DNA from: a virus
Length of the DNA stretch: 64,000 bases
Strand: one strand, 5' to 3'
Virus record (IMG/VR): IMGVR_UViG_3300048592_000418
Location: 38,005 to 102,004 of that record
In this document: piece by piece, positions 25,174 through 42,756 of the stretch
Numbering within the stretch: the first letter of the stretch is position 1
Layout: each line of letters begins with the position of its first letter
Made by a program: the position numbers and the translations under genes
The notes under the pieces: model-generated
Told to the model about the DNA's origin: nothing
Database searches by the model: none
What the model saw: the letters and a program-made list of their open reading frames with translations, nothing else

Positions 25174-25271
25174 ACGCGAAACGGAAACGGAAGCTCGAAG
25201 CGGCTGGCTGGAAGGTCGGCACTGCGAAAGAATTTTTGCGCAGAGCGCGCAGGAAGCGAAAGGCGAAATGA
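25170..25271 (+). CDS. Very small basic protein (33 aa)
   Basis: 33 residues with ATGA junctions on both sides. KRKLEAAGWKVGTAKEFL matches a short motif found at the front of some small phage HTH-type proteins, here without the rest. Could be a remnant. Confidence 0.5.
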   Translation: MNAKRKRKLEAAGWKVGTAKEFLRRARRKRKAK

Positions 25272-25372
25272 AGGCGCCGGCGTTCGCTGTCCTGCTTCGC
25301 GCCATCGTCGCGGCCGTTATTCCGGCGCGAATCCGGACCGCTTGGCGCGTGCGTTATCTCGGCATCAGGTGA
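25268..25372 (+). CDS. Very small hydrophobic/basic peptide (34 aa)
   Basis: 34 residues from an ATGA junction. A hydrophobic N-terminal half (FAVLLRAIVAAVIPA) and basic C-terminus, membrane-active in appearance. Its existence as a gene is uncertain. Confidence 0.4.
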   Translation: MKAPAFAVLLRAIVAAVIPARIRTAWRVRYLGIR

Positions 25373-25435
25373 ATCGCGCCGCGGCCGGCGCAATAGGGTT
25401 GACGACTACTTCGCGGTTCGGGTTTTTTCTGTGTC

Positions 25436-25696
25436 GTGTCCGGCACGAAACGCAGTCGCGAACAGCTCGAAGAAATGATCGCGGAAGCGCAGCGGCTTCA
25501 CGCAGCGCGCGGCGGCATCCATGACATGAACGCAGCGCTTCACATCCTGACTTCGCTGCGGTTCCTCTTTGAATGCGGCGAGGAATGGCGCATTCGCTGG
25601 GATCGCGCGGATCGGCTGCTGGCGAACATGCGCGTTTGCTTCGCGACTGGATTTTACCCGAAGCATCTCGCGAGCGCTCAACCTGTTTTCGCATGA
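25436..25696 (+). CDS. Hypothetical protein, first gene of the island
   Basis: 86 residues from GTG 25436, after a 63-base gap that ends in a T-rich stretch (GGTTTTTTCTG). Helical, with EEMIAEAQRLHAARGG. Coupled by ATGA to the papain-like gene. The function is unknown; the start is uncertain because GTG 25431 is nearby. Confidence 0.6.
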   Translation: MSGTKRSREQLEEMIAEAQRLHAARGGIHDMNAALHILTSLRFLFECGEEWRIRWDRADRLLANMRVCFATGFYPKHLASAQPVFA

Positions 25697-26217
25697 ACCC
25701 GGAGCGCTGGAATCGGCCGAAGCAGACAATCTTCACGACGGAAACGACGGATGGCGATTGCTGGCGTTGCTGCATCGCCGCGATCCTGAACGTTCCCGCG
25801 GAGAGCGTCCCGCACTTCGGAGCCGATCCGCACTGTGACGCAGAAACGCAAAAATGGCTGAACGCTCGCGGCTACGTGATGATCCAAGTTGAGGGCGGCG
25901 GATTCTATCCGCCGATCCGTTTCCCGCAGTGGGGCAAGCCGGTTCAGGACAAGACGCCGAACACGGCGGTTTATCCGATCATCGCGTGCGGTCCCACCAT
26001 CCGCACGAAGAAGCCGGGCGATCATCATGCCGTCGTTTGGCTGGATCGCCGCGTCGTTTACGATCCGCATCCGAGCTAAGCCGGGCTGATCTGGATTGCT
26101 GAGGCTTACGCCATTGTTCCCGCGTTTGAATTTAAGGCTGAAGCAGGGCCAATCGATCCGGCGGCGATCATGGAAGCTGTGAAGCATAATCACGAAAAGC
26201 CGCTTCGTTTGGACTGA
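25693..26217 (+). pseudogene. Papain-like (C39-type) protein interrupted by in-frame TAA
   Basis: The frame from ATG 25693 has GDCWRCCIAAIL (likely nucleophile Cys), HHAVVWL (His) and VVYDPHPS (Asp), the order of a papain/C39-type triad. TAA at 26077-26079 follows PHPS. The frame then continues as AGLIWIAEAYAIVPAFEF to TGA 26215-26217, which overlaps the next ATG as TGATG. The PHPS-x-AGL continuity and that junction show the ancestral gene ended at 26217. The TAA replaces one codon. All three triad positions precede the TAA, so the 128-residue form may still fold. Confidence 0.7.
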
Positions 26218-26612
26218 TGATCCGGCACGTTTCACAGCACGGCTTCCCGACGGCATGCCAGCAGAGCGTGATCGCCATGCTCGCCGGCGTCGAACTCCGC
26301 GACGTGATCGCGCTGTTCGGCTTCGGGCCGATGTCGTGTTCCGAGCGCGTGAAGGCGTGCGATCACTTCGGGATCGTGCTGGGGGATCGCGTGCTGATCG
26401 AAGGCTACGGGAACGAGACGCTGACTTGCCTGATGGACAGGCACCGCGCGCTGTTCCTTTCGGTTTCCGAGCATGGGAACCCGCAGTTCAGGCACTGCGT
26501 CCTTTGGCATGGTGGGACGCTTTACGATCCGGCGCTCGGCGTGAACCCCGCTTGGCCGTGGCGTTATCACGTGACGATTGCGCAGATCGTCGCCGGCGCT
26601 CCCGCTTTATGA
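26217..26612 (+). CDS. Papain-like (C39-type) protein, second paralogue
   Basis: 131 residues, TGATG-coupled to the first. It has FPTACQQSVIAMLAG (Cys), FRHCVLWHGG (His) and LYDPALG (Asp) in the same order and spacing class as its neighbours. Sequence identity is limited to these blocks. A peptidase or bacteriocin-leader-peptidase-like fold is likely; activity and substrate are unknown. Confidence 0.68.
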   Translation: MIRHVSQHGFPTACQQSVIAMLAGVELRDVIALFGFGPMSCSERVKACDHFGIVLGDRVLIEGYGNETLTCLMDRHRALFLSVSEHGNPQFRHCVLWHGGTLYDPALGVNPAWPWRYHVTIAQIVAGAPAL

Positions 26613-27283
26613 TCCGAGTTTTTCAGCAAGTTATCGACAAGAAAAACGGCGATTGCTGGCGCGCGTGCATCGCTTCGATTCTCGAAATGAAGGCGGACGA
26701 CGTGCCGAACTTCGTCGGACTCGCGGGGAAGAAGTTCGGCGAGGATCCGCACGCGCTCGCGCTCGAATGGCTGCGCGCTCGCGGCGTCGCGTTGCTCGAA
26801 TGTCACGGCCGCGATCCGAAGGACGCGTTCAACTGGCGAATGCTTCCCGGCGTGTTCTGCATCCTTTCCGTTCCATCGCAGAAGTTCCCGAAGGAATGCA
26901 CGCATGCCGTGGTGGGGCAATGGCGCGAACATCCGGAAAACCCGGATTGCACGCAGATCGTGATCGTTCACGATCCGAATCCGGGGAACGTGCCTTATCC
27001 GGTGGACGTGAAGATCAACGGGATCACGTATCTCGTCCCGATGCGGCCGAAGCTCGGACAGCGAATCGACGCGATGCTTCCCGACGGGAAATCCCCATAC
27101 AGCGCGAAGCGCGAGCCGGAACACGGCCGGGCGGCGGAAATACTCGCCGCGGCCGGAGTTCAAAGCAGCTCGCACAGAGGGAAAATTCCCACGAAAACAG
27201 AGGGCGGAAGCAGTGACAGCAAAAGCGCATGCCATAACAAACCCGCGAGCGTGAAACCGGGGCCGAAAAAAACCCGAAAATAG
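26609..27283 (+). CDS. Papain-like (C39-type) protein, third paralogue
   Basis: 224 residues from the ATGA junction at 26609. The core has NGDCWRACIASILEM (Cys), CTHAVVGQW (His) and VIVHDPNPG (Asp). The C-terminal 60 residues are an extra Lys/Ser-rich low-complexity tail not found in the other two. It ends at TAG 27281-27283 inside the A-rich front of the next promoter-operator element. Family is confident; role in the phage is unknown. Confidence 0.72.
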   Translation: MIRVFQQVIDKKNGDCWRACIASILEMKADDVPNFVGLAGKKFGEDPHALALEWLRARGVALLECHGRDPKDAFNWRMLPGVFCILSVPSQKFPKECTHAVVGQWREHPENPDCTQIVIVHDPNPGNVPYPVDVKINGITYLVPMRPKLGQRIDAMLPDGKSPYSAKREPEHGRAAEILAAAGVQSSSHRGKIPTKTEGGSSDSKSACHNKPASVKPGPKKTRK

Positions 27284-27317
27284 TGCTTGCAAAGGAACCA
27301 AACATGGTTCCTAGTGT
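27273..27317 (+). promoter_or_regulatory. Promoter-operator element, copy 5 (dyad 27294-27311)
   Basis: CGAAAATAGTG, CTTGC, AAA, dyad with AAACAT centre, TAGTGTTCG. The stop codon of the preceding gene is the TAG of the A-rich front. The ATG of the next gene is at 27325, 13 bases after the dyad. It starts the first operator-headed cassette of the island. Confidence 0.8.
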
Positions 27318-27324
27318 TCGCACG

Positions 27325-27678
27325 ATGACGACAACGACGAACACGAACCGGGAAACGCAAATCGCGCAGGCGAACGAAATCGCGCGCCAGATCGGCAATC
27401 GCGCCTTCTTCATGATGGGAGCGAAGAACCTGATGGCGACGGAGCACGAAGGGAAAGCGGCGCTGACGTTCAAGATCGCGCGCAATGACAACGGCGTGAC
27501 GCACGTCCGCGTTGTTCTGGAACCCTCGGACACTTACACCGTGCAATTCCTGAAGGTCCGCAATCCGAGCGCGCGCAGCGCTGGCGGGATCTTCACCGTC
27601 TCGGAAGCTGACATGGTTTACTCGGACAGCCTGAACACCTGCATCGAAGCGCACACCGGCTTGCGCCTTTCGCTGTGA
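27325..27678 (+). CDS. Hypothetical protein with MTTTTNTN start
   Basis: 117 residues, starting at ATG 27325. Thr/Asn-rich first residues as in other cassette leaders, then a mixed fold (KAALTFKIARND, TYTVQFLKVRNP). GTGA overlap with the next gene. A starts-in-the-operator frame (27283) is not used. The function is unknown. Confidence 0.75.
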   Translation: MTTTTNTNRETQIAQANEIARQIGNRAFFMMGAKNLMATEHEGKAALTFKIARNDNGVTHVRVVLEPSDTYTVQFLKVRNPSARSAGGIFTVSEADMVYSDSLNTCIEAHTGLRLSL

Positions 27679-28334
27679 ATATCTTCGGCGGCGTCACTTT
27701 CGGGCCGGATGACGTGCGGACGCTCGCGGCCGGCGGCGAGCAAATGCGATGCGTGAAGTTCGCGATCCTCACGTCGCAGACGTGCGGGGAAGCGTGCTGG
27801 CACGCGGCGGAAGAGGTTTGCCGCTGTTCGTGCGGCGGGCGCAATCACGGATGCCTGAAGAGCGCGGACGGCGTGCGGCCGGTGCGAACGGCGAAGATTT
27901 CCGGGCATCGTTACAAGCTCGCGGCCGTTGGCATGCGCTCGGACGTGATGCCGGCCGCAACCGCACTGAACGGCCGGCAATGGCGCGCTGTGATGCCGGC
28001 CGAACTCGTGATCGATGGCATCGGACAGGGGAAGGACTGGACGCCGGCCACCCTTGCCGCGGCACGCGCGGCCGGGAAAGAGGCTTGGATCTCGCAATAC
28101 CGTTACCATTGGACGGAAACGGAAGACGGCGCGCCGGCTCGCGTGAAGTATGCGACGCGCGATCAAGTCGCGCGCTGGGAAGAGCTGAAGGCATGGCGCG
28201 GCACGCCGGACGAACGGAACGTTTGCCTTCTGTGGGAACTCGAAGTGATGCCGGCGGCGCCGACGATCAAGATCGTCAGCAAACAGACGGGCGAACCGCT
28301 CGCGAATCAGTCACCGCTCGGCGAACAGATTTGA
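27675..28334 (+). CDS. Hypothetical protein with Cys cluster
   Basis: 219 residues from GTG 27675. The front holds CGEACWHAAEEVCRCSCGG with five Cys, a pattern shared with uncharacterised phage proteins. The rest is mixed and contains WRAVMPAELVIDGIG. A metal site is likely; the function is unknown. Confidence 0.75.
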   Translation: MNIFGGVTFGPDDVRTLAAGGEQMRCVKFAILTSQTCGEACWHAAEEVCRCSCGGRNHGCLKSADGVRPVRTAKISGHRYKLAAVGMRSDVMPAATALNGRQWRAVMPAELVIDGIGQGKDWTPATLAAARAAGKEAWISQYRYHWTETEDGAPARVKYATRDQVARWEELKAWRGTPDERNVCLLWELEVMPAAPTIKIVSKQTGEPLANQSPLGEQI

Positions 28335-28360
28335 TCAGGAATCCACGAACACGAAATGCC

Positions 28361-28792
28361 ATGACGGACAAAGAACATATCAAACTCGTCAGCGTCGGGA
28401 ACCGCTTTTGGGCGAAGTTCTCGCGCATCGTTGCGGAAGCGCTCGCCGAACTTCCCGCCGGCCGGGAAGACGAGTTCATTCCCTATCTTCAGGACAAAAC
28501 ATCGATCTACGGTTCGACGTATTCGGAAGAGCTGGCGAAGATCGCGAAGCACGGAACGCAGCAGTCGGCCGCGGAGCGATGGACGAAAACGCGTCCGACG
28601 CAGCCGGGGCTTTATCTCGTTCAGTTCCTTTGCGACGCCTTCCCGAAAGGCGATCCGAACAACGTCTGTCATCAGCTCGTGAACGTCGTTCACGACGGCC
28701 GGGTTTTGCATGACGGCCGGTTTCGCGATGAAGCCGAGCTGAAAGGGTGGATTTGGGCGCGCGTTACGCCGGCAAAAGATTTTTCAAAATAG
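28361..28792 (+). CDS. Hypothetical protein
   Basis: 143 residues, ATG 28361. Contains LPAGREDEFIPYLQDKT and a beta-rich second half (LVQFLCDAFP, VNVVHDGRVLHDG). The stop TAG lies in the front of the next operator element. The function is unknown. Confidence 0.72.
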   Translation: MTDKEHIKLVSVGNRFWAKFSRIVAEALAELPAGREDEFIPYLQDKTSIYGSTYSEELAKIAKHGTQQSAAERWTKTRPTQPGLYLVQFLCDAFPKGDPNNVCHQLVNVVHDGRVLHDGRFRDEAELKGWIWARVTPAKDFSK

Positions 28793-28826
28793 CGCTTGCA
28801 AAGGAACCAAACATGGTTCCTAGTGT
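28783..28826 (+). promoter_or_regulatory. Promoter-operator element, copy 6 (dyad 28803-28820)
   Basis: CAAAATAGCG, CTTGC, AAA, dyad with AAACAT centre, TAGTGTTCG. The next ATG is 45 bases beyond the dyad (28866), and the leader between is built from repeated ACGAA/CGAACAC units. It heads a six-gene cassette. Confidence 0.8.
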
Positions 28827-28865
28827 TCGTGTCAGCAACGAAAACGAACCCAAACGAACACGAAA

Positions 28866-29132
28866 ATGGAAACGCTCATCACTGAAGTCCTGAAAAGCGA
28901 AATCGCGACTTACGTCACCGCGACGTGCGACAAAACGACGGCGACGGTTGTGATCGACAAGCCGGCCGCAGCTTATCCCCGCGTTCAGGTGATTTGCCAA
29001 AACGCTTCGCATCGCGTTTGGCGCCGGTCCGGCCGGTTCTTCGCGAACACGGAAGAAGCGCTGAACGGTTACAAGTCCGGCGCGATGAAGGCGATCATCA
29101 TGGCCGCGGCCGGCGCCGCGTTGGCGTCCTGA
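28866..29132 (+). CDS. Hypothetical protein
   Basis: 88 residues. ATG 28866 follows the sequence CACGAAA with no Shine-Dalgarno match. Thr/Lys-rich first half, Ala-rich helical end (AIIMAAAGAALAS). The function is unknown. Confidence 0.7.
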   Translation: METLITEVLKSEIATYVTATCDKTTATVVIDKPAAAYPRVQVICQNASHRVWRRSGRFFANTEEALNGYKSGAMKAIIMAAAGAALAS

Positions 29133-29149
29133 ACCCGGAGGATCCCACG

Positions 29150-29563
29150 ATGCATCCGAAGATCGAATTCACGGTTCACCCGAACGCGCCGGTTGTGATC
29201 AACCGATACGTCGAACGCAACGGCCGGAGGACTTACAACCGGAACGCATGGCGCGCGAAGTATTCGAGCCGCGAGAACGCGCAATGGCTTTGTGACACGA
29301 TGAACCGGACGGCCGGCGACGGCGGAACGGTTTGGTATGTCGCAGGCGAGGGAACGCTTCGCGCTCCGCTCGGAAACACGCCGACGGCCGCGGCGCCCAC
29401 CACGGCGCCGGCCGGCGTCTGCGTCACCTACGCGAACGGCGCGCGCTCGTTCCATCCCGGCTTCAGCATGAAGGCCGGGCACGCGTTCGCGCGCTCCCGG
29501 TCCGACGTGTCCAGCGTCCGCGACTTCGAGATCCGCAACGGCCGGCGCGTGATCATCGCCTGA
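29150..29563 (+). CDS. Hypothetical protein with strong RBS
   Basis: 137 residues. A rare good Shine-Dalgarno sequence, GGAGGA at 29137-29142, sits 7 bases before ATG 29150. The N-terminal half contains VERNGRRTYNRNAWRAKY. The middle is Ala/Thr/Pro-rich. The function is unknown. Confidence 0.75.
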   Translation: MHPKIEFTVHPNAPVVINRYVERNGRRTYNRNAWRAKYSSRENAQWLCDTMNRTAGDGGTVWYVAGEGTLRAPLGNTPTAAAPTTAPAGVCVTYANGARSFHPGFSMKAGHAFARSRSDVSSVRDFEIRNGRRVIIA

Positions 29564-29575
29564 ACATTCTCCACC

Positions 29576-29917
29576 ATGGCAACGCTACTGAAAAAACCCG
29601 TTACGCGCGTCACGAATTCCGCGCTGGACGGATGTTTCGGAAAAGATCGGAATCGGCGGATCGTGATCACGCTGATTCCCGGAACGGACACCGTTCCCGA
29701 TTTGATTCAGCTCCGGCCGCACGGCACGCGCCGCGCGGAGTCCATCGCCGCGATTGACGTTTACCGCATCGCGATCACGCGCCGCGTGAACTGCGAGCGG
29801 CTGAAGAAGGCGAACGAGCGGAAGGAAAAGATCCGCGAGCGTCGCGCGCGCGCACGCATCGCCGCGGCCGATTATCGGATGAAGAAGCAGCTTCAGCGGG
29901 AGAACTCCGGCGCATGA
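29576..29917 (+). CDS. Hypothetical basic protein
   Basis: 113 residues. A beta-rich front (RRIVITLIPGTDTVPDLI) and a long basic C-terminal helix (KKANERKEKIRERRARA) suggest nucleic-acid contact. The function is unknown. Confidence 0.7.
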   Translation: MATLLKKPVTRVTNSALDGCFGKDRNRRIVITLIPGTDTVPDLIQLRPHGTRRAESIAAIDVYRIAITRRVNCERLKKANERKEKIRERRARARIAAADYRMKKQLQRENSGA

Positions 29918-30147
29918 AGAAGGCGAAGCGACGCTTCCCGCCGGGACTGGCAACGGATCCCGTCCACCCTCCGGAGCTGCGCGGCTGGACGCGCGAGCGG
30001 CGTCTGGACTGCTGGATTTACACGCGTGACGCCGGCGAAGTCATCATGCACTTCCCGAAGGGTGGAAAATGGAAGGCCGTCCGCGGGAACGCCGACGGCG
30101 TTGCGGTCGCGAGCGCGGAGGAAGCGGCGGCGCTGTTCGAGCCATGA
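29914..30147 (+). CDS. Small hypothetical protein
   Basis: 77 residues from an ATGA junction. Basic start and a beta-like core (CWIYTRDAGEVIMHFPKGG). The function is unknown. Confidence 0.68.
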   Translation: MKKAKRRFPPGLATDPVHPPELRGWTRERRLDCWIYTRDAGEVIMHFPKGGKWKAVRGNADGVAVASAEEAAALFEP

Positions 30148-30395
30148 ACGCGAGAACGAGACGGCTTTTGACGGACGTTTCGCGGATGCTGTCCGCGGGA
30201 TTCATGACATGGGACGGAGAAGCGCGCGGCGTTGAAATCCCTGCAACGGAAGCGAAGCGCATGCTCCGCCGAGTGAACGCGGCGCTTCAGCGCGAGACGA
30301 AGCCGACGCCGGCGCCAGTGCCGAAGCGCGTGCGCATTTTTTCGCTAGGGCCGGAGCATTTGCCGGCGGATCCGGTCGGGGAATCTGTGCAATGA
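30144..30395 (+). CDS. Small hypothetical protein
   Basis: 83 residues from the ATGA junction at 30144. Helical front (RRLLTDVSRMLSAGF), Pro-rich end. The function is unknown. Confidence 0.65.
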   Translation: MNARTRRLLTDVSRMLSAGFMTWDGEARGVEIPATEAKRMLRRVNAALQRETKPTPAPVPKRVRIFSLGPEHLPADPVGESVQ

Positions 30396-30616
30396 GCGCA
30401 AGCACGCAAAAGGCGATGGCCGGAACGCGGGCCGCAGTTGCCGCGACGCATGCGCGCTGCGCGGAAGCCGTGCGGCGGTTTGACGCGGCGAAGACTGGCG
30501 CCGATGTCGCGGCCGTGCTGACGTGGGCGCGCGGGCAAAGCTGGTTTTGGCGAAGCTCGGACGATGATCGGGCGATGCGGGAAGCGCACGCGCGAGCGCG
30601 CGAGCGGACAAAATGA
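30392..30616 (+). CDS. Small helical protein
   Basis: 74 residues, Ala/Arg-rich helices throughout, ATGA junctions at both ends. The function is unknown. Confidence 0.6.
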   Translation: MSASTQKAMAGTRAAVAATHARCAEAVRRFDAAKTGADVAAVLTWARGQSWFWRSSDDDRAMREAHARARERTK

Positions 30617-30945
30617 AATCGCCGCGCATGCTCGAAATCGAAGCTCGCCGGAACGAGCTGACGGCCGCGGCGGACGCACGGCGCGAGCAAGCCGGGCCGG
30701 ACATGCGCGGACTTCTGCCGACGGCGCATGACTGGATGACGCCGGCGGAACGCTGGGAAGATCACGCGCTCGCGCTCGAAGCCGTCGCGCTCGAACGTGG
30801 ATGGTGGGGAATTCCGGCGGAGCGAATCGCGCTGAAACGGCAGCTCCGCGCGGCCGGCGCAACCTTCGAGCTGGACGCACCGATCCGCGTGCTCCGCGAA
30901 ATTCTCGACAATAGTGCTTGCGTCGGAACCAAACATGGTTCCTAA
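30613..30945 (+). CDS. Hypothetical protein ending inside the operator
   Basis: 110 residues from the ATGA junction. Helical, with WWGIPAERIALKRQLRAAG. The coding sequence runs through the next dyad and stops at TAA 30943-30945, one base after it, so the last residues are encoded by the operator. The function is unknown. Confidence 0.65.
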   Translation: MKSPRMLEIEARRNELTAAADARREQAGPDMRGLLPTAHDWMTPAERWEDHALALEAVALERGWWGIPAERIALKRQLRAAGATFELDAPIRVLREILDNSACVGTKHGS

Positions 30946-30948
30946 CTG
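30909..30948 (+). promoter_or_regulatory. Promoter-operator element, copy 7 (dyad 30925-30942)
   Basis: ACAATAGTG, CTTGC, GTC, dyad with AAACAT centre, TAACTGTTCG. It differs from the common form at the three bases between TTGC and the dyad. The next ATG is 28 bases away (30971). It heads the ten-gene cassette, the longest in the island. Confidence 0.78.
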
Positions 30949-30970
30949 TTCGCGACGATACGAAACGAAC

Positions 30971-31267
30971 ATGAATATGACAACCGCTCCGCTGTCCGAA
31001 ACTCAGATTCAGCAACTCGAAGCGCGGGTTTCCGCGCTCTGCAATTCCGTGATGCACGCCGTTGCGGCCGGCATCCGGAACGCCAAGCGCAAGCCGCGCG
31101 ACTTGGATCAAGTCGTTGCCGTGATGCGCGAGGAACTGAAGGCGTTCATCTTCGGCGACAGCTACGCCGCGGAGCGCGAAGCCGTGCTGATGCGCAGCGT
31201 CGGCGACGGTTACATTGTGGGCAGCATCGCCGCGAGCTGCATCAGCCGGATCGAATTCGCCGAATGA
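30971..31267 (+). CDS. Hypothetical helical protein
   Basis: 98 residues from ATG 30971 (or 30977). Helical, with ETQIQQLEARVSALCNSVMH. First gene of its cassette. The function is unknown. Confidence 0.72.
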   Translation: MNMTTAPLSETQIQQLEARVSALCNSVMHAVAAGIRNAKRKPRDLDQVVAVMREELKAFIFGDSYAAEREAVLMRSVGDGYIVGSIAASCISRIEFAE

Positions 31268-31584
31268 CACGGCGCCAGCAGCGCGCGATCCTCCGGTCGC
31301 TGGACGCGATCAATCAGGGGATCGCGCGCGGCGAGTATGCGCAGGAAGACTTTTCGCACATGGCACAACCGAAAAACATCCCGAAGGCGTCACCGGCTGA
31401 CGCGGAATTCATCCTGAAGAACCGCGACATCGGCGTGACGAAGATCGCCGAAAAGCTGACGCACCTGACGACGGATCAGATCCGCGGCGTGCTGAAGCGC
31501 GGCGGCGTTCCGAACCTGAAATTCAACCGGCACGCGGCGCGGCGCTTGCATGGCGCGCCGGGGCCGAAATTCACGAAGGAATGA
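31264..31584 (+). CDS. Putative HTH DNA-binding protein
   Basis: 106 residues. The segment NRDIGVTKIAEKLTHLTTDQIRGVLKRGG reads as a helix-turn-helix with two flanking basic regions. It could be a regulator, including of the dispersed dyads. ATGA start. Confidence 0.6.
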   Translation: MTRRQQRAILRSLDAINQGIARGEYAQEDFSHMAQPKNIPKASPADAEFILKNRDIGVTKIAEKLTHLTTDQIRGVLKRGGVPNLKFNRHAARRLHGAPGPKFTKE

Positions 31585-31799
31585 ACGCGGCCGAATTCCT
31601 CCCGGCGCCGGAGCCGAAGCGCGGCGTGATGTTCCTTCATCGGCGCATCATTTATCCGGACACGAAGACGCCGGCGAAAATGATCGTTACGGCCGTCCGC
31701 AAGGGCTGCGTTTATTATCGGTTTTTCGGCGGCGGCGGGCATGAGTTCGCCACCCGCGAGCGTTGGCCGCAGATCGCCGCAGCAATTCCCGAAGCATGA
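31581..31799 (+). CDS. Small hypothetical protein
   Basis: 72 residues from an ATGA junction. Beta-rich (VMFLHRRIIYPD, KGCVYYRFFGGGGHEF). The function is unknown. Confidence 0.68.
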   Translation: MNAAEFLPAPEPKRGVMFLHRRIIYPDTKTPAKMIVTAVRKGCVYYRFFGGGGHEFATRERWPQIAAAIPEA

Positions 31800-32299
31800 A
31801 AACCCTGATCATCCCTCCGGCGGAAACGAAGCTCGGCTTCGTCGTCTGCGAATGCAACTCGACAGGCGGAGCGCTCGAAGAAGTCGCGCGGAAAGACGCC
31901 GCGGCCGAAGCGCTGAATCTGGCGCGCCAGCTCGCCGCGATGGACGAGCACGTTCGCGTTTTCCATGAAATCGCGCTGACGGTTGACCCGTCGGACGTGC
32001 GCGCGACGGCGCCGCAATCGACGCAGCCGCGCGCGGACGCTCGCGACGTGCTGATTCGCCGTCTCGTGAACTGCGTCAATCGCGCGGGGATCGAAGTGCT
32101 CGCCGAGCGGATGCCGTCGCTGATCGAAATCACCGAAGCACTGATCGAAGCGAAGGCGCTCGGATACACGCCAGACGGCGCGGCTCCGGCGATCAAATAT
32201 CCGGACACGCCGGCCGGTCGCGAGCTGCGTTCGCTTCACGAACGCCAGCGTGCCGAATTGCGGCGGATTCAGGACGCGGAGCGCGCGAACTTCCGATGA
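31796..32299 (+). CDS. Hypothetical protein
   Basis: 167 residues from the ATGA junction at 31796. Helical C-terminus (RELRSLHERQRAELRRIQD). The function is unknown. Confidence 0.7.
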   Translation: MKTLIIPPAETKLGFVVCECNSTGGALEEVARKDAAAEALNLARQLAAMDEHVRVFHEIALTVDPSDVRATAPQSTQPRADARDVLIRRLVNCVNRAGIEVLAERMPSLIEITEALIEAKALGYTPDGAAPAIKYPDTPAGRELRSLHERQRAELRRIQDAERANFR

Positions 32300-32763
32300 C
32301 ACGCACGCAGGACAAGGATCGCGAGGCGTCGGAATCGTTTCGGCTGCATCACGACGCGCTGATCGCGACGATTCAGACGGAGTTCCCGCCGGGCCGGCGC
32401 GTGAAGTGGCGAACGTATGCGCGCGGCGGAAAAGGCGTTCATTGGCATCACGGCCGCGTTGAAGAGACGGCGCGCTTCGGAACGAGCGTTCGAGTCCGCA
32501 ACACGAAGACGCAGACCGTTCAGGACAAGGAAGCGAAGGATCTCGAACTGGACGAGCCGATCACCGCTCCGCCGGACCCGCTGACGCCGGAAATCGACGC
32601 GGCCGGATATTCGCTCGGCGATTTGCATACGGCATTGATCACCGGCCGGCTTTCGCTTCCGCTCTGGATTCGCTCCGGCCGGTCGCGACATCGCGTCACA
32701 CTCGAAACCCGTGACGCGTTTTGCCGCGGTTTGCTGCTGGCGCTCGAAATGAATTCACCATGA
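32296..32763 (+). CDS. Hypothetical protein
   Basis: 155 residues. A beta-rich first half (KWRTYARGGKGVHWHHGRVEE) followed by a helical part. ATGA junctions at both ends. The function is unknown. Confidence 0.7.
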   Translation: MTRTQDKDREASESFRLHHDALIATIQTEFPPGRRVKWRTYARGGKGVHWHHGRVEETARFGTSVRVRNTKTQTVQDKEAKDLELDEPITAPPDPLTPEIDAAGYSLGDLHTALITGRLSLPLWIRSGRSRHRVTLETRDAFCRGLLLALEMNSP

Positions 32764-33188
32764 ACGACGAAGCGATCACGAACCCGAAACTGAACACGCT
32801 GACCGGATTCCGGACGGAAAACATCGGCGCGCCGGATGAAAACACGCGCGCGCTTGTCGTGCAATTCGACGGCGGCGGCATTTCGATCACCGTCTCGAAG
32901 GGCGATCAGATCCCGCGCGTCGTCCAGCAGTTCGAGCTTGTCGCAGCGCACCTTCGCGCGATCTACCTCGGCGAAAAGCAATTCAGCGATCAGCCGGCGA
33001 CGCTGGCGCCGCACGAAACGACGCTGGAAGAGCTGAAGCGGCGAATCACCTATTGCGTCCGACAGCTCGCCGCTGCGCGTTGCGTCATGAGCGTCGCGCA
33101 GCTTCAGGACGAAGTTCAGCGCGTGCTAACGCAGGCGGAGCTTTGCGCGCATGACGTGGAATTCCTGATCGCGGGGATGAAGCGATGA
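32760..33188 (+). CDS. Hypothetical protein, related to the next gene
   Basis: 142 residues from the ATGA junction. N-terminal beta sheet (ALVVQFDGGGISITVSKGD) and a helical C-terminus ending LCAHDVEFLIAGMKR. That ending resembles the end of the following gene (LCVHDVLFLKGEK), so the pair may be duplicated. Confidence 0.7.
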   Translation: MNDEAITNPKLNTLTGFRTENIGAPDENTRALVVQFDGGGISITVSKGDQIPRVVQQFELVAAHLRAIYLGEKQFSDQPATLAPHETTLEELKRRITYCVRQLAAARCVMSVAQLQDEVQRVLTQAELCAHDVEFLIAGMKR

Positions 33189-33490
33189 ACACGGCGTTCC
33201 GCGGGAACCTTGTCGCGCTCGGCACGCCGACGGGAGAGACGCAGCCGCGCGCGCTGATTCATTGCACGCAGCAGGAAATTCAATCGCTGAAGTTCCTCGC
33301 GCTCGGCGCCGTGATCGTGGTGGGCGAATCCGAGCTGAAGAACACGCTCGCCGAGCTGGAACGCCGGCTGAAATACATCGCGGACACGCTGATCACGACG
33401 CCGGAGCCGAAGCAGGACGTGATCGAAAAACTCTGTCACAACGTCGGGCTGTGCGTGCATGACGTGCTTTTCCTGAAGGGCGAAAAATGA
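33185..33490 (+). CDS. Hypothetical protein, related to the previous gene
   Basis: 101 residues. The C-terminal helix pair (LAELERRLKYIADTL ... LCVHDVLFLKGEK) parallels that of its neighbour. ATGA junctions at both ends. The function is unknown. Confidence 0.7.
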   Translation: MNTAFRGNLVALGTPTGETQPRALIHCTQQEIQSLKFLALGAVIVVGESELKNTLAELERRLKYIADTLITTPEPKQDVIEKLCHNVGLCVHDVLFLKGEK

Positions 33491-33708
33491 AACCCGACGA
33501 ACCGAAGAAACCGGAGCCGGCGCCGATGGACGGGATCCGCGTTGGCGCGCACCTGATCAGCATGAAGCAGATCCGCGAATCGCTCGCGGCCGAAGAAATG
33601 CGAACGCGCGGATGCACCTACGATCACGCGATGAAAATTCTCGGCATTGGATCGGCCGCGGTTCAGATCCGCGCATACCGGATGCTGAAGAAGCTCCCCG
33701 AAAAATGA
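33487..33708 (+). CDS. Small protein with possible HTH
   Basis: 73 residues. CTYDHAMKILGIGSAAVQIR could form a helix-turn-helix. Pro-rich N-terminus. The function is unknown; a regulator is possible. Confidence 0.6.
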   Translation: MKPDEPKKPEPAPMDGIRVGAHLISMKQIRESLAAEEMRTRGCTYDHAMKILGIGSAAVQIRAYRMLKKLPEK

Positions 33709-33959
33709 TTCACGAAGGCACAGTGAACGGCGAGCCGGCGCTGATTGAAAACGAACAGGGCCGCGGCGGGGACGCGACACGCGTCGCGATCATTCCGCGG
33801 GAACATAGTTTGCGACGCACTGGGGACGGTCAGATCGTCGGCGTGATTGACAGGACCGGCCGGACGCCGAAGCGCTTCGATCCCGTCTGGCGCGAAGTCA
33901 CGCTGAACGACAGGATCCAGATCGTGAAGCAGAGCTGGAATCAATCGTCATGGCTGTGA
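33705..33959 (+). CDS. Small hypothetical protein
   Basis: 84 residues from the ATGA junction. Beta-rich with GDGQIVGVIDRTGRTPKRF. It overlaps the next gene by 10 bases. The function is unknown. Confidence 0.65.
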   Translation: MIHEGTVNGEPALIENEQGRGGDATRVAIIPREHSLRRTGDGQIVGVIDRTGRTPKRFDPVWREVTLNDRIQIVKQSWNQSSWL

Positions 33960-34207
33960 CGCGCTACCGGAACCCATGGCACCGGCCGGAGGATAGGAAC
34001 AGCGGGCCGGAGTATTACGAGACGGACGCACGGCCGCGCATGGTGGCGGGGCTGGCGATTTACAAGCGCTTGCCGAACTGCTGGGACATCGTGCGGGACG
34101 GCGTTTGCATTTGCCAGCGTGCCGGGCCGAAGGGCGCGAAGGAAGCAGCCGAGCGGCTGGGGAACTCTCGGAAACTGAAGCGAAAAACGGCGCCGAAAGA
34201 TTTTTGA
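33950..34207 (+). CDS. Small hypothetical protein
   Basis: 85 residues. NCWDIVRDGVCICQRAG in the middle, basic C-terminus. It ends just before the next operator element. The function is unknown. Confidence 0.68.
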   Translation: MAVTRYRNPWHRPEDRNSGPEYYETDARPRMVAGLAIYKRLPNCWDIVRDGVCICQRAGPKGAKEAAERLGNSRKLKRKTAPKDF

Positions 34208-34247
34208 AAATAGATCTTGCGCGGGAACCATGTTTGGTTCCTAGTCC
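34205..34247 (+). promoter_or_regulatory. Promoter-operator element, copy 8 (dyad 34224-34241)
   Basis: TGAAAATAGAT, CTTGC, GCG, dyad with centre ATGTTT, TAGTCCG. The centre is the reverse complement of the common AAACAT while the arms and TTGC keep their orientation. The next ATG is at 34253, only 11 bases after the dyad. Confidence 0.78.
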
Positions 34248-34252
34248 GTGAC

Positions 34253-34558
34253 ATGGAAACGAACACGATGACGAACGCGGCGAAAACGACGGTGCAAAAT
34301 TTCTGGCCTGAAATGGGCCGAGCGAATCCGAACGCTCAATGCGAGATCCGGAGCGGCTTCGAGAAAATGACGGTCTGGACGCGTAAGACGTTCCCGGCGA
34401 TGCGCGGCGTGAAGCTCGTTCGCGTGCTGCAATCCGCGGATCTCGTTCCGCAGTCGCAGCGCCGGATCGGAACCAACGAATACACCGTGACGGCCGCGGC
34501 GCTCGAAGTGCTCCGCTCGAAGGGTTTCACGTTCCAGCGCGAATGCCTGCTGGACTGA
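34253..34558 (+). CDS. Hypothetical protein with METNTMTN start
   Basis: 101 residues from ATG 34253, or 96 from ATG 34268. The Thr/Asn-rich front again resembles other cassette leaders. The rest has TRKTFPAMRGVKLVRVLQ. The function is unknown. Confidence 0.72.
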   Translation: METNTMTNAAKTTVQNFWPEMGRANPNAQCEIRSGFEKMTVWTRKTFPAMRGVKLVRVLQSADLVPQSQRRIGTNEYTVTAAALEVLRSKGFTFQRECLLD

Positions 34559-34597
34559 GGCACGGGCGACAATTTCAACCACGAAACGAATACGAAC

Positions 34598-35299
34598 ATG
34601 AATCACGCGAATCCCCATCAGGAAAAAGCGATGTCGCCGGATCAGGCGGCATTTTTCAAAAAGCACGGCTTCGAGCGCGGACCGGCCGGCGGCGTCGTGC
34701 TGCGCACGTGCCAGATCGCCGTTTACGTTGTCGAAAGCCGCGGTGACATCCGCAGCAGCTTCGGCGTTTACGTGCGGCACGGCGAAGCGGCCGGCGCGTT
34801 CTGGCGCGACGTTGAACCCATCGTTCGGAAGGACTCACTCGCCGAAGCGATCAACGTCGGCGCCGGCATCCTCGGGATCGTCGGATGCGAGCGCTTCGTG
34901 AAGGTGATCACCGCGGACGGTTCCAGCCTGTCGGGCTGGCGCGTTGACGAGACGGAAACGAATCCGCTGAAGGGCGAGCCGGTGACGCGCTCGCCGAAAT
35001 CGAACACCGTTCCAGTTCGCGAAGTCCCCGTGAAGCTCGCCGCGCTCCGTGAATTGCACGCGGCCGGCAAGGGCGCCGATTATTACGATCTGGCGCACGC
35101 GCTGCATAACACCGCGGACAAGCTGACGCGCGAGCACACGGCGTTCAGCGGCATCGAAGACATGGTGGCGAGCGCTGCGGATCATGGTTACAAGCCGAGC
35201 GTCCAGACGAGCAAGCATCCGAGCCGGACCGCGCTCGCGGATCTGTTCGATGCGATTTGCGAACTGCGCGGCATCGCGTCGCGGGCGTATCGTTACTGA
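34598..35299 (+). CDS. Hypothetical protein
   Basis: 233 residues. ATG 34598 follows an ACGAAACGAATACGAAC leader without a Shine-Dalgarno sequence. The front (QAAFFKKHGFERGPAGGVV) and the middle (AEAINVGAGILGIVG) look folded. The function is unknown. Confidence 0.72.
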   Translation: MNHANPHQEKAMSPDQAAFFKKHGFERGPAGGVVLRTCQIAVYVVESRGDIRSSFGVYVRHGEAAGAFWRDVEPIVRKDSLAEAINVGAGILGIVGCERFVKVITADGSSLSGWRVDETETNPLKGEPVTRSPKSNTVPVREVPVKLAALRELHAAGKGADYYDLAHALHNTADKLTREHTAFSGIEDMVASAADHGYKPSVQTSKHPSRTALADLFDAICELRGIASRAYRY

Positions 35300-35302
35300 C
35301 CA

Positions 35303-35539
35303 ATGCCGCAAGAACTCGCATCAATGACGCTCGCGCAGCTTCGCGAGGAACACGATCACGGCCGCGGCGGACTGAAGATCTACGCGGAAACCGCGTGGGG
35401 ATGGTCCGAGCTGAAAGTTGCGCCGTTCCTGAAGCAGCTCGAACGTGACGACGGCAGCGAAGATCTCCCTGTCGTGCTGGCGATCATGACGATTCGTCGC
35501 GGCGGTTCCGCCACCCTGAAGATTCCACGCCGCGCATGA
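35303..35539 (+). CDS. Small hypothetical protein
   Basis: 78 residues. LAQLREEHDHGRGGLKIYAE at the front and a beta-like end. ATGA overlap with the next gene. The function is unknown. Confidence 0.68.
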   Translation: MPQELASMTLAQLREEHDHGRGGLKIYAETAWGWSELKVAPFLKQLERDDGSEDLPVVLAIMTIRRGGSATLKIPRRA

Positions 35540-35814
35540 TCATCCCGGAAGAAATGGACGCGAAAGCAGTCCGCGCGATCAACGCGGCCGGCGAGTGCAA
35601 TTTCTCCGGCTGGATCGTTGACCGTGCTCGAATCCGGGAAGGCGTGTTTGAAGTAAGGATTCGCGAAATGCCTTGGCACAAAGAAAAGGAATGGATGGGA
35701 GTGCGAGGCTGGATCAGAGCGCTGTATGCGCCGGAAGATTTTGCGGACGCGCTGCGCGGAGCATTCACCAAAGACGGGGACCGATTCGACGTTTGGGCAC
35801 CGCAAAAACCATGA
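35536..35814 (+). CDS. Small hypothetical protein
   Basis: 92 residues, two related aromatic segments (CNFSGWIVDRARIREG, EWMGVRGWIRALYAPEDF). ATGA junctions. The function is unknown. Confidence 0.68.
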   Translation: MIIPEEMDAKAVRAINAAGECNFSGWIVDRARIREGVFEVRIREMPWHKEKEWMGVRGWIRALYAPEDFADALRGAFTKDGDRFDVWAPQKP

Positions 35815-36125
35815 ACGAGCAATCCGAGCTTCCGCTGGAACGTTGGCTTAACTCCGGCCGTGACAGGCCGAAGGATCTCACGATCCGGCATTGGCTGGAT
35901 CTGCTGGCGCTGATCGTTCACGGCGCCGGCGTCAGGTTTACGGAAGGCGACATGCTGGCGGATTTGCACGCGTCCGTTCCGTCCGCGAAGGGGATCACTC
36001 GTCTTGCCGATTTGGACTCCGTAACGGCGACGCATTGGCGCTGGCACTGGGAAATGAAGCGGCCGGACATCGCGCGGGAAGTCGAACGGAGACGGGAGGA
36101 AAAAAAGAATGAACTTCACGACTGA
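35811..36125 (+). CDS. Hypothetical protein
   Basis: 104 residues from the ATGA junction. Helical; ends in a charged RREEKK tail. It overlaps the next gene by 17 bases. The function is unknown. Confidence 0.68.
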   Translation: MNEQSELPLERWLNSGRDRPKDLTIRHWLDLLALIVHGAGVRFTEGDMLADLHASVPSAKGITRLADLDSVTATHWRWHWEMKRPDIAREVERRREEKKNELHD

Positions 36126-36447
36126 AACCGCACTGCGCGAGCTGTCGCCGGAAGCCGCGGACGCCGAAGCGGCGAAGTTCTTCCCGCTCTCCGATGCTGA
36201 AAAAGACGACGTGCGGCGCCGGGCCGCGCTGAACCTGTGCCGGAAAATGGATCGGTGCATCGCGTCGTTCATTCTCGGCGAGTCCAGCAAGCGCGACGTG
36301 AACCGATGGCTGAAGGAAGAGATCGAACAGCTCACGCGCTGGCAGCAGGCGGAGAAATGGCGCGCCGCAGCCTGTGCGACGTTCGACAATCACCGGCACG
36401 CATACATTGCGAACCGGCGGCTGATTCGGGCGCCGAAAAATTCCTGA
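36109..36447 (+). CDS. Hypothetical helical protein
   Basis: 112 residues. ALRELSPEAADAEAAKFF and long helices. Its stop precedes the next operator element directly. The function is unknown. Confidence 0.7.
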   Translation: MNFTTETALRELSPEAADAEAAKFFPLSDAEKDDVRRRAALNLCRKMDRCIASFILGESSKRDVNRWLKEEIEQLTRWQQAEKWRAAACATFDNHRHAYIANRRLIRAPKNS

Positions 36448-36487
36448 AAATAGATCTTGCAAAGGAACCAAACATGGTTCCCAGTGT
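36446..36487 (+). promoter_or_regulatory. Promoter-operator element, copy 9 (dyad 36464-36481)
   Basis: GAAAATAGAT, CTTGC, AAA, dyad with AAACAT centre, then CAGTG, one base different from TAGTG. The next ATG is 13 bases away at 36495. Confidence 0.8.
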
Positions 36488-36494
36488 TGGAACG

Positions 36495-36956
36495 ATGACG
36501 ACAACGAACACGATTTCAGAGCTGATCAAACAGGCGAACGCGCTCGGCGCCGACGCCTTCGCGACGGGCGGCAAGCGCGCACCGGCCGCGAGCGTGAAGT
36601 TTGACGGGCTGATGAAGGCGAACCGCGAGCTGTTCAACGCGAACGCGCTCGCCGTGCTGGATGCCTTTTTGAATGGATGGGACGCCGCGAATCTGGCGAA
36701 CCCGGTTCCTTCGGAGCTGATGGCGCGGGCGACGGATGCGCACAGCCAAACCCGCCGCGAAAAGAACCGCGTGACGCTGACGGCCGCGTTCCGGGCCGGT
36801 TTCACGCACTGCGCGATCCTCGGCGAGTATTACCATTTTTTCCGCAGCGAATCCGATCTGAACGAGTTCCTGAAGCTCCCGAACGTCGTGAAGGCGGATC
36901 CCGTCAACGGCGCGCTTCGCGTTGATCACTCGAACAATCTCGCTTTTTTCGACTGA
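36495..36956 (+). CDS. Hypothetical protein with MTTTNT start
   Basis: 153 residues from ATG 36495. Helical, with FRAGFTHCAILGEYYHFFRS in the middle. First gene of a seven-gene cassette. The function is unknown. Confidence 0.73.
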   Translation: MTTTNTISELIKQANALGADAFATGGKRAPAASVKFDGLMKANRELFNANALAVLDAFLNGWDAANLANPVPSELMARATDAHSQTRREKNRVTLTAAFRAGFTHCAILGEYYHFFRSESDLNEFLKLPNVVKADPVNGALRVDHSNNLAFFD

Positions 36957-37360
36957 TGAACGCCGCGATTATTCCCCCGGACGTAGCGGCATACCTGATC
37001 GCCGCGGCTCGCGAGCTGATGGCTGAACAGCAGTTCGAGCCGAACGCCGAGCGCGATCTGAAAACTTGGCTGCAATGCGAGCGCGTCAGGATTTGCGAGC
37101 GCGCGCTGGAAAAAATGCACGGGCTGATCGAGTCCGTTCTATGCCACCCGGAGCGGAAGCGCGCTGTCTGCGAGCATATCGGCGCGCAGGTTTGGCAACG
37201 GCTGCGGGACACGATCCCCGCGGACGCTCCGCAGCGGTTCCAGCCGCGTTTCGTGGCGTATGCCGCGAGTCAGGGGATGACGCCGGCCGAAGTGCTGAAG
37301 CGTGACGTGAACATGACGAATTTCATTTGCTGGGCACACTCTAACCCGTCGAAACGATGA
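36956..37360 (+). CDS. Hypothetical protein
   Basis: 134 residues, TGATG-coupled. Helical with several Cys (WLQCERVRICERALEK). The function is unknown. Confidence 0.7.
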   Translation: MNAAIIPPDVAAYLIAAARELMAEQQFEPNAERDLKTWLQCERVRICERALEKMHGLIESVLCHPERKRAVCEHIGAQVWQRLRDTIPADAPQRFQPRFVAYAASQGMTPAEVLKRDVNMTNFICWAHSNPSKR

Positions 37361-37689
37361 ATCACACGAACCTGATGGATCTCGAACTCGTGAATCCCCG
37401 CCGGCCGGGGAAAGCGATCTATGTCGAAACCAAAGTTCTCGGCGGAAAACTGTTTTTCATCTTCGAGCGCATGCGCTGGGATGACACAACGCAGGACAAC
37501 GTTTCGGAATCGACGCATCAGATCGCGCCGGCGGACTTCACGAAGCGCTGGCGCGTGCTCGAACGTGCGGGCTGGCGCGTCAGCGTGCCGAAGAAGGCGC
37601 CGGAAGTCGTGCGCGGCCGTTACGTCGCGCCGTCGCACTGCGATTGCCACCCGCTCCCGAAAACCGTCGGCAAACCGCTGAAGCTATGA
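37357..37689 (+). CDS. Hypothetical protein
   Basis: 110 residues from the ATGA junction. Beta-rich front (AIYVETKVLGGKLFFIFE) and a C-terminal HCDCHP. The function is unknown. Confidence 0.7.
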   Translation: MNHTNLMDLELVNPRRPGKAIYVETKVLGGKLFFIFERMRWDDTTQDNVSESTHQIAPADFTKRWRVLERAGWRVSVPKKAPEVVRGRYVAPSHCDCHPLPKTVGKPLKL

Positions 37690-37835
37690 TGACGACGATC
37701 TTCGTCACCCTGTTAATTCTCGCGCTCTTTTGCCTGTTTGGATTTTGGATCCTAGTTTGGGCGGCGAAGATCATCGGCTTCACGATTGGCCTATTCATTT
37801 CCCTGTTCAGAGATCTATTCACGAAACGAAAATGA
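37686..37835 (+). CDS. Small hydrophobic membrane protein (holin-like candidate)
   Basis: 49 residues, almost entirely hydrophobic: two transmembrane stretches (TIFVTLLILALFCLFGFWIL and KIIGFTIGLFISLF) followed by a basic tail FTKRK. Size and charge layout would suit a small holin or pinholin. Its place among accessory genes rather than next to an endolysin argues for caution. Confidence 0.6.
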   Translation: MMTTIFVTLLILALFCLFGFWILVWAAKIIGFTIGLFISLFRDLFTKRK

Positions 37836-38177
37836 GAATCCCGTTCACGCTCGCCGAAAACGGCTATCGCATCGATCCGGAGAATCCATCCGGCGCGCTT
37901 CATCAGCACGCGCGGACATCCGTTCTATCCCGTCGCCTATGGTGGCGATCAGCATCGCAACGCCGGCGAGCACGTGAAGGACATGCTCGAAGCTGCGCAC
38001 GCGGCCGGGCTGGACGCCGGCAAGGCTTACGGCGTCGGCTTCGCTGCGGCCGAAATCATTCGCCAGTCCGGCGACGTGGAAAGCGCGCGCGGACTGCTGC
38101 GCGTCTGGACGTGCGAGGCTTCGCGAGCCGATCCGGAAGATCTGAAAGTGCTTCGCGAGCACAAGCTGATCCCGTGA
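37832..38177 (+). pseudogene. Small gene split by a one-base frameshift
   Basis: From ATG 37832 (ATGA junction) the frame reads RIPFTLAENGYRIDPENPSG, then loses protein character. The next frame picks up as STRGHPFYPVAYGGDQHRN and continues to TGA 38175-38177, which is GTGA-coupled to the next gene. Removing one C near 37901 would join them as GALISTRGHPF. About 114 residues in all. A mutation, an assembly error, or programmed +1 shifting are possible. The internal GTG at 37974 is a weaker alternative start. Confidence 0.65.
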
Positions 38178-38542
38178 AGCGCACCGTTCACAAGCTCCGC
38201 GAGTTCGCCGCGCTCCCGGAGTTCGAGGGGACGCAGACGGCCGCGCTGATGATCGCTGCGGCGGATGAACTGGACGCCGAGCGCGCGAAGGCCGCGAAGG
38301 TTTCCCGCTGGATCCTGCGCGAGCGCGCACGGCTGACAGTCGGCGAGACGGACGAACAGCGCGCGGAGAAAATGCGTTCCCCGCTCCCGGTCCGGCTTTG
38401 GATGATCGCCGGAGAGCTGACGGACGATCTGACGGCGCGCATCGCGTCGGACGAAATATGCAACGAACAGCGTCGAAAATTAGGGGTGCCGGCCGCTCCG
38501 CCGGACCCGATGATCGCGCTACTCCATGGAACCCCGCGATGA
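38174..38542 (+). CDS. Hypothetical protein
   Basis: 122 residues from GTG 38174 (GTGA junction). Helical with AALMIAAADELDAERAK; such an ...A.ELD..R front is common in small phage proteins. The function is unknown. Confidence 0.68.
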   Translation: MKRTVHKLREFAALPEFEGTQTAALMIAAADELDAERAKAAKVSRWILRERARLTVGETDEQRAEKMRSPLPVRLWMIAGELTDDLTARIASDEICNEQRRKLGVPAAPPDPMIALLHGTPR

Positions 38543-39072
38543 CAGCAACCGATCAAATGCTCTGGCTCAACGGCGAGCCGTATTCGAGCGCGAAGCGATT
38601 CGGCTTCGCTGACGGAGGCGTTTTCATCGCGGAACTCGTTCCGCCCATCGCCAGCGACGGCGAGACAGTCACGGTTTCCCTCACGCTCTCGAAGCGTGAA
38701 ACCCGCGAGCGCATCGGCGGCACGGCCGCGCGTGCGACGCTGGACGCTCCGCACCGGCTGACGATCTTCGATGACTTCGGCACGCCGCACGAAGTTGCCG
38801 GCGAAACCGGGTTCATCGCGCGCTTGTCGGACGAGCTGCGCGCGCAAGGCTTGGTCGGACCGGAGCGCGCGATCCATCGCTTCGGCGACTATCGCACGGA
38901 ACTGAAATACGTTCCGGGGCCGGGCGCTGAAATTTTCCGCATCATTTCCAGCAAGACGGTGGGACCGTGGGCACGCTCGAAGGCGCTTGCTTGGAAAGGA
39001 TACAAGCGCAAGCGTAAGGGACAGCCGATGCCGCACGAAGAACTGATGCGGCGTCAGCTTGCTCCCGTATGA
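38539..39072 (+). CDS. Hypothetical protein
   Basis: 177 residues from the ATGA junction. Contains GRRFG-like turns (SAKRFGFADGG) and a basic end (KGYKRKRKGQP). The function is unknown. Confidence 0.7.
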   Translation: MTATDQMLWLNGEPYSSAKRFGFADGGVFIAELVPPIASDGETVTVSLTLSKRETRERIGGTAARATLDAPHRLTIFDDFGTPHEVAGETGFIARLSDELRAQGLVGPERAIHRFGDYRTELKYVPGPGAEIFRIISSKTVGPWARSKALAWKGYKRKRKGQPMPHEELMRRQLAPV

Positions 39073-39431
39073 AAACGAAAACGAAAAATCCCACAATGGC
39101 GCGCGTCGAACGGCGCGTGACTGAACTTGCGCACCGGCGGGACATCGCTGTCCCGCCGCGTTCGCTCCCGAAGATGAAAGGGCCGATCACAAGCCGGTTT
39201 TGGGCTTGGCCGAATCACCTGAATGAAGGCCGGATCGTCTATCTCGATCACAAACGCGTCAGCAAAGGCCGCGAGCGCGTCGCGCTCGTTCGCATCAGGA
39301 ACCCGGCGCGAGTGATTGCACGCGGCGCCGCGGCGCTCCGCCGGCGCGGATACGCGACGAAGGCGAACGCGGACACGATTGCGCGCGCAGTGCTCGAAGG
39401 CGTCGGCGTGCTCTGGCGTCCGCGCGAGTAA
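39069..39431 (+). CDS. Hypothetical basic protein
   Basis: 120 residues from the ATGA junction. Strongly basic, with WAWPNHLNEGRIVYLDHKRV. It ends with TAA just before the next operator element. The function is unknown. Confidence 0.68.
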   Translation: MKTKTKNPTMARVERRVTELAHRRDIAVPPRSLPKMKGPITSRFWAWPNHLNEGRIVYLDHKRVSKGRERVALVRIRNPARVIARGAAALRRRGYATKANADTIARAVLEGVGVLWRPRE

Positions 39432-39434
39432 GGC

Positions 39435-39480
39435 GCGAAAAAAAGTGCTTGCACTGGGAACCAAAAAGGGTTCCAGTGCT
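39435..39480 (+). promoter_or_regulatory. Promoter-operator element, copy 10, divergent (dyad 39457-39474)
   Basis: GCGAAAAAAAGTG, CTTGC, ACTG, then GGAACC-AAAAAG-GGTTCC and CAGTG. The arms are intact but the centre differs and the TTGC-to-dyad spacing is one base longer. The next ATG is 12 bases away at 39487. Confidence 0.72.
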
Positions 39481-39486
39481 CGCACG

Positions 39487-39666
39487 ATGACGAACACGAA
39501 AACACCCGAAGCGCTGGCAACGTTGCCGAATGCGCGCCTAATGCGCCGGCATGATGCCGTTTTATCTGTCTGGCGGAATACGAAATCCGCGAACACCGCT
39601 CGCCGTTGCGAGTGCCGCCTTTCTGTGATTCGCACTGCGGCGCAACTTCAGGACTTCAGCCGATGA
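39487..39666 (+). CDS. Small protein with MTNTKT start
   Basis: 59 residues from ATG 39487. The Thr/Asn/Lys front matches other cassette leaders. The remainder is basic and has CECRLSVIR. The function is unknown. Confidence 0.62.
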   Translation: MTNTKTPEALATLPNARLMRRHDAVLSVWRNTKSANTARRCECRLSVIRTAAQLQDFSR

Positions 39667-40322: not shown

Positions 40323-40326
40323 ATTT

Positions 40327-41789: not shown

Positions 41790-41829
41790 ACCCATGTCGA
41801 AACGGCGGAAATCCGGGACTGCATTTTCC

Positions 41830-41873
41830 CGAAAAAAAGTGCTTGCAAAGGAACCAAACATGGTTCCTAGTGC
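41830..41873 (+). promoter_or_regulatory. Promoter-operator element, copy 11 (dyad 41850-41867)
   Basis: CGAAAAAAAGTG, CTTGC, AAA, dyad with AAACAT centre, TAGTG. The next ATG is 10 bases after the dyad at 41878. It heads the last island cassette, which ends at the hairpin near 42700. A small frame from ATG 41794 reads through the element and is probably not used. Confidence 0.8.
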
Positions 41874-41877
41874 TCGC

Positions 41878-42177: not shown

Positions 42178-42188
42178 TTTTCACGATC

Positions 42189-42659: not shown

Positions 42660-42688
42660 TGCGCGTTCGTTAGTTCGTAAATCGTCAC

Positions 42689-42722: not shown

Positions 42723-42756
42723 GTGAACCGGCCGCGCGCGTCCACCATCCGACGGC

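Follow-up and report, generated by a model that had tools for sequence, protein, structure and literature searches.

A repeated dyad at the operon starts of a tailed phage is probably the operator of a shared promoter switch

We find that an exact dyad, GGAACC-N6-GGTTCC, occurs 14 times in the 102,004-bp virus record IMGVR_UViG_3300048592_000418, and that all 14 copies lie at the start of an operon on the coding strand. The conserved block around each copy is likely a promoter that contains a dimeric operator; the cassette behind it would be an operon driven by that block, and the operons together would answer to one shared switch. The sites themselves, their spacing, their orientation and the coupling of the genes that follow are directly observed. 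An earlier note on this DNA had viewed the cassettes as exchangeable units with the blocks as possible recombination sites; modularity may instead be a consequence of operon structure, and recombination between blocks a possible by-product rather than the reason that the blocks exist.

The phage and its island of orphan genes

The window, the whole stretch of DNA that was analysed, is 64,000 nucleotides long and corresponds to positions 38005-102004 of the record; positions below are those of the window unless given as contig positions. The two ends of the record match each other over 127 bp, and therefore the phage genome is probably complete. Every called gene is on the + strand. Terminase, portal, head-morphogenesis, scaffold, head and tape measure genes place the virus among tailed phages with SPP1-like heads:

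20959, + strand, terminase gene
22386, + strand, portal gene
24046-25173, + strand, head-morphogenesis gene
25174-43269, + strand, island made up almost entirely of orphan genes, flanked by the head-morphogenesis and scaffold genes
43270-44079, + strand, scaffold gene, by family match and, by tblastn, as neighbour of the capsid gene
44125, + strand, major head protein gene
51307, + strand, tape measure gene

The phage also encodes an ERF-family protein (E 8.7e-13) and an SSB. A further gene of the same phage (L002:1763-2341) resembles a GIY-YIG homing endonuclease and has a NUMOD3 motif.

The island separates genes that are close together in related phages. In 35 of the 36 relative loci that have both genes on one strand, the head-morphogenesis match lies 750-2880 bp from the start of the major head gene (in the remaining one it follows the head gene, at -2277), as opposed to 18,952 bp here, and therefore some 18 kb were gained here or lost elsewhere. 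In L126, the locus nearest by portal (36%) and head-morphogenesis protein (38%), no gene is called in the interval that separates head-morphogenesis from scaffold. Searches of IMG/VR and GTDB with the capsid, terminase, helicase, portal and two island proteins returned no close relative, the best capsid identity being 59% in both collections, over 77 IMG/VR loci and 17 loci of GTDB genomes. Phage and plasmid records compared by DNA, and phage records compared by protein, contain no close relative either, although near records may be omitted from these sets.

In the loci compared, matches are confined to two island proteins, neither of them encoded in the ten-gene cassette at 30971-34207 described below. 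The product of 27304-27678 is matched at 38% over 107 aa and that of 27675-28334 at 46% over 164 aa, and both matches are in Tunturi_5, a phage of Tunturiibacter, where the two relatives sit a few genes apart; here the genes are adjacent in one cassette. The second protein is also matched in three IMG/VR loci. These matches to a jumbo phage of Tunturiibacter, an Acidobacterium, hint at the host range. Near the left edge of the island, the genes at 25693 and 26609 form a paralogous pair (40% over 62 aa) with a GDCWRxCIAxIL stretch; together with 26217 between them they resemble, to our eye, papain-like or C39-like cysteine peptidases, and the peptidase-like genes of 25693-27283 have no Pfam match.

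The dyad blocks and the operons that they open

Eleven of the 14 exact dyads are in the window:

438-455 (contig 38442), atypical copy before a helicase-like gene (498-2651), whose -35-like box is set some 10 bp farther upstream of the dyad
4346-4363 (contig 42350), atypical copy, its centre the reverse complement of the centre at 438
19357-19374, dyad upstream of the island
20010-20027, dyad upstream of the island
27294-27311, first dyad in the island, CTTGC at -8, ATG at +31
28803-28820, island dyad, CTTGC at -8
30925-30942, dyad GGAACCAAACATGGTTCC opening a ten-gene cassette, centre AAACAT
34224-34241, dyad closing that cassette and opening the next, centre ATGTTT
36464-36481, island dyad, CTTGC at -8, ATG at +31
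39457-39474 (contig 77461), island dyad shifted by 1 bp, CTTGC at -9, ATG at +30
41850-41867, last dyad in the island

The motif read backwards, as a control, has no exact occurrence in the whole record. When up to two mismatches are allowed the window contains 22 dyads, compared with 2.6 expected, and none of 100 shuffles reached as many. At 44-64 kb, where the late structural genes lie, exact dyads are absent. The commonest centre, AAACAT, is found in one orientation in nine of the 14 copies. Centres also pair as reverse complements, AAACAT (nine copies) with ATGTTT (34224) and ATGAAT (438) with ATTCAT (4346), which looks like a spacer turned round between its arms.

The cassette opened at 30925 illustrates the arrangement:

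30897-30970, + strand, putative promoter-operator block: A-rich front, CTTGC at 30917, dyad at 30925-30942, TAACTG, purine-rich leader, followed by ATG at 30971
30943-30945, + strand, TAA at which the preceding gene ends, immediately behind the dyad
30971-31267, 31264-31584, 31581-31799, 31796-32299, 32296-32763, + strand, cassette genes 1-5
32760-33188, 33185-33490, 33487-33708, 33705-33959, 33950-34207, + strand, cassette genes 6-10

All nine junctions between 30971 and 34207 overlap; the overlap is 4 nt long at eight of them and 10 nt at the other. None of the ten genes is matched in Pfam or PHROGs at an E threshold of 0.01 (for the ninth, a longer reading with the same frame and stop, 33612-33956, was scanned). 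Two of them, 32760 and the adjoining 33185, are distantly paralogous (25% over 109 aa, E 1.4e-4). Over the island, none of seven gene boundaries at dyads overlaps, compared with 18 of 32 elsewhere, a count made with a simple gene caller that missed some small ORFs, for example within the 480-nt "gap" before 30628. Thus the earlier description of each dyad as the start of a closed run of coupled genes is borne out. So is its remark that the preceding gene often stops in the A-rich front or past the dyad: the stop is 13-28 nt before the dyad, that is, in the A-rich front, in nine of the 14 copies, and in the other five it is at -38 (one copy), further upstream (three) or just past the dyad (one, the TAA at 30943).

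Alignment of the blocks reveals conserved columns in a fixed order, an A-rich tract, CTTGC, the dyad, TAGTG and a purine-rich leader, after which similarity falls to background. The left half, GAAAAWARNGCTTG, occurs eight times in the window with at most one mismatch, compared with 0.38 expected, and all eight adjoin a dyad. In 11 of the 14 copies the dyad occupies the spacer of about 19 nt between a -35-like TTGCAA or TTGCAC and a weak -10 element (consensus yAGTGT), the standard copies having the geometry TTGCAA-19-TAGTGT with the dyad inside the 19-nt spacer. The gap between CTTGC and the dyad is three bases in nine copies and four in two (contig 24676 and 77461); in the three others (contig 37106, 38442 and 42350) a CTTGC or CTTTAC box lies about 10 bp further upstream. 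In both copies shifted by 1 bp the distance from CTTGC to ATG is 39, a value also found in three of eight standard copies that were measured (the rest have 36, 37, 54, 54 and 71). Given that the dyad slides while this distance stays at 39, the box and start codon on the one hand and the dyad on the other are separate parts. In seven of the 13 copies listed the first ATG comes at +28 to +31 relative to the dyad, approximately where transcription is expected to start.

Promoter activity, a regulator and a leaderless start are what we infer from this arrangement. One dimeric DNA-binding protein, encoded by the phage or by the host, would switch all the dyad operons together, and several of their mRNAs may be leaderless, because the start codon is often at or beside the expected transcription start. 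In the three copies that have their -35-like box farther upstream, by about one turn of the helix, the dyad would cover the -10 element. Repression by occlusion seems somewhat likelier than MerR-type activation through distortion of the spacer. Block copying is likely to have contributed to the conservation of AAACAT as well, since its single orientation in nine copies exceeds what a symmetric operator alone demands. Against the promoter reading, the -10 element is weak, the 19-nt spacer is long and the distance from CTTGC to ATG varies from 36 to 71 among copies; a consensus promoter scan, which covered spacers of 16-18 nt only, does not pick the dyad blocks. A search of six frames for the regulator gave no MerR- or HTH_17-like pattern, and the 25 of 30 families listed include one weak HTH_23 match and no MerR family.

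Two other functions have to be weighed against that of operator. The dyads might serve one of two ParB-like proteins as centromere-like sites scattered over the genome, and influence promoters secondarily. A ParB-like gene at 10163-10801 does match ParB_N, below Pfam's cut-off (E 2.8e-4), and Spo0J (E 5.7e-4), and a second one, at 10801-12327, adjoins it. We hold this very improbable; partition sites need no promoter context, whereas every dyad is fixed in a promoter-like block at an operon start, and no ParA appears among the first 25 families of each list. The product of 10801-12327 matches PHROG 5475, of unknown function, over its full length. Alternatively, a perfect six-pair dyad located at operon boundaries could form an intrinsic terminator or stem-loop at operon ends, but the dyads are tied to starts and not ends; this explanation is hardly credible and was dropped, as no copy is followed by a T run and terminator-like sites are at chance level (31 compared with 27.6 expected).

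Identity between blocks and the exchange of cassettes

A question remains of whether the blocks, besides acting as promoters, are exchange sites at which cassettes are gained, lost and shuffled by a relaxed Erf-type recombination, which we regard as unlikely though conceivable. The ERF-family protein and the SSB would provide the machinery. The earlier note relied on identical 40-bp blocks between cassettes, a claim that fails for all but one of the 91 copy pairs: exact identity is at least 40 bp in one pair, at least 30 bp in six and at least 20 bp in 33, the longest stretch being 41 bp (19357 and 41850). Still, some blocks share 26-41 bp, and random stretches compared likewise share 9 bp on average and 13 bp at most. 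Reading frames would mostly survive a swap, given that the upstream gene terminates ahead of the dyad in 13 of 14 cases, and the exceptional gene that ends at 30943 would stop at the same place (+18) with six of the 13 other copies as partner.

The blocks that bound the ten-gene cassette tell otherwise. Aligned in the same direction, the blocks at 30925 and 34224 have 10 bp in common, a background level; aligned in opposite directions they share 18 bp, since the dyad at 34224 is the common one in reverse complement. Homologous recombination there would therefore invert the cassette and not excise it. Only four of the 13 neighbouring dyad pairs reach at least 20 bp of direct identity. GC3 is even across the 15 segments between dyads (0.74-0.79), and terminator-like sites, as counted above, show no excess. 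The paralogue pairs 25693/26609 and 32760/33185 each lie inside one dyad-free stretch, and the island edges (25173 and 43270) are 2.1 kb before the first dyad and 1.4 kb after the last. The flanks favour neither side: among the nine standard copies, resemblance on the left does not correlate with that on the right (Mantel r 0.03, P 0.43) and each side has excess structure, as exchange would have it, but the within-side controls for these nine are also non-significant, which leaves the test little power, and over all 14 copies the two flanks are correlated (r 0.38, P 0.009). Given that the bounding blocks are inverted, composition is even, and island edges and duplications are away from dyads, the evidence at hand leans against free exchange of this cassette.

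In a wider form, the 18-kb island would have grown and been reshuffled by Erf-type annealing between operator-promoters, and some cassettes could also invert, because dyads occur in both orientations (30925 as opposed to 34224). We give this history a rather small chance. If true, each incoming operon would arrive already under the phage's own switch. Annealing recombinases and mosaicism are the subject of PMC3945230 and PMC2327257.

Comparison with known phage repeats

Dyad regulation in this phage would be a further case of dispersed phage operator-promoters, a known kind. In SPBRE, the 15-bp operator of Bacillus phage SPbeta, one element recurs in several promoters under one master regulator, MrpR, a repressor with a tyrosine-recombinase fold, and the genes driven are mostly of unknown function (PMC10516654). 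Likewise, the same dyad stands here in all 14 operon-start blocks, with a fixed order of elements and putative promoters; the likeness is one of kind. MerR-type promoters (PMC11049809) carry a dyad inside the 19-bp spacer that separates -35 from -10, which is the geometry found here, yet they need a MerR-family regulator, for which six frames gave no pattern match; a host regulator could serve. Cluster A stoperators are asymmetric, oriented sites, unlike the symmetric dyad at 14 of 14 operon starts.

PeSL promoter and stem-loop cassettes of T4-type phages were reportedly described in Arbiol 2010 and Comeau 2014. Like the blocks here, PeSLs are regulatory units repeated between accessory genes, and they are reported to mediate shuffling (PMC4503421); they include a terminator, whereas the dyad blocks have no T run and terminator-like sites are at chance. 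The 17-bp dyad repeats of Cluster O, the Corndog group, resemble ours in having invariant arms, many copies per phage, a centre in both orientations and a suggested role as site of a dimeric regulator; Corndog has 34, and two indels in Cluster O phages were explained by recombination between them, which favours exchange (PMC4351075). Their sequence, TGTTCGG-N3-CCGAACA, differs in arms and spacing from GGAACC-N6-GGTTCC, which places our dyad outside that family, and ten of the 34 fall inside genes, midway or in the 3' part, with few near promoters, whereas all 14 here open operons. The SAS/ESAS elements of Cluster K mycobacteriophages are tied to gene starts, and about half have inverted repeats; these are 17-bp, imperfect and of variable spacer, unlike the exact 6+6+6 dyad here. 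Their authors proposed that the repeats could be targets of homologous recombination (PMC3203893). Given these precedents in Cluster O and K mycobacteriophages and in the PeSLs, the idea of repeats as exchange points is not new.

Within the databases searched, the common dyad block is absent from IMG/VR and GTDB genomes, and the dyad itself from Tunturi_5 and nine other records (none of ten). CTTGC-N3-dyad does occur at six IMG/VR loci, all with other centres and no A-rich front, and is read as chance.

The operator that opens most accessory operons offers a handle on the timing of the orphan genes of an otherwise unannotatable phage. Shared repeats as recombination points have already been raised for other phage groups (PMC3203893 and PMC4351075), and the dyad blocks are a clean place to ask whether shared promoters double as such points.
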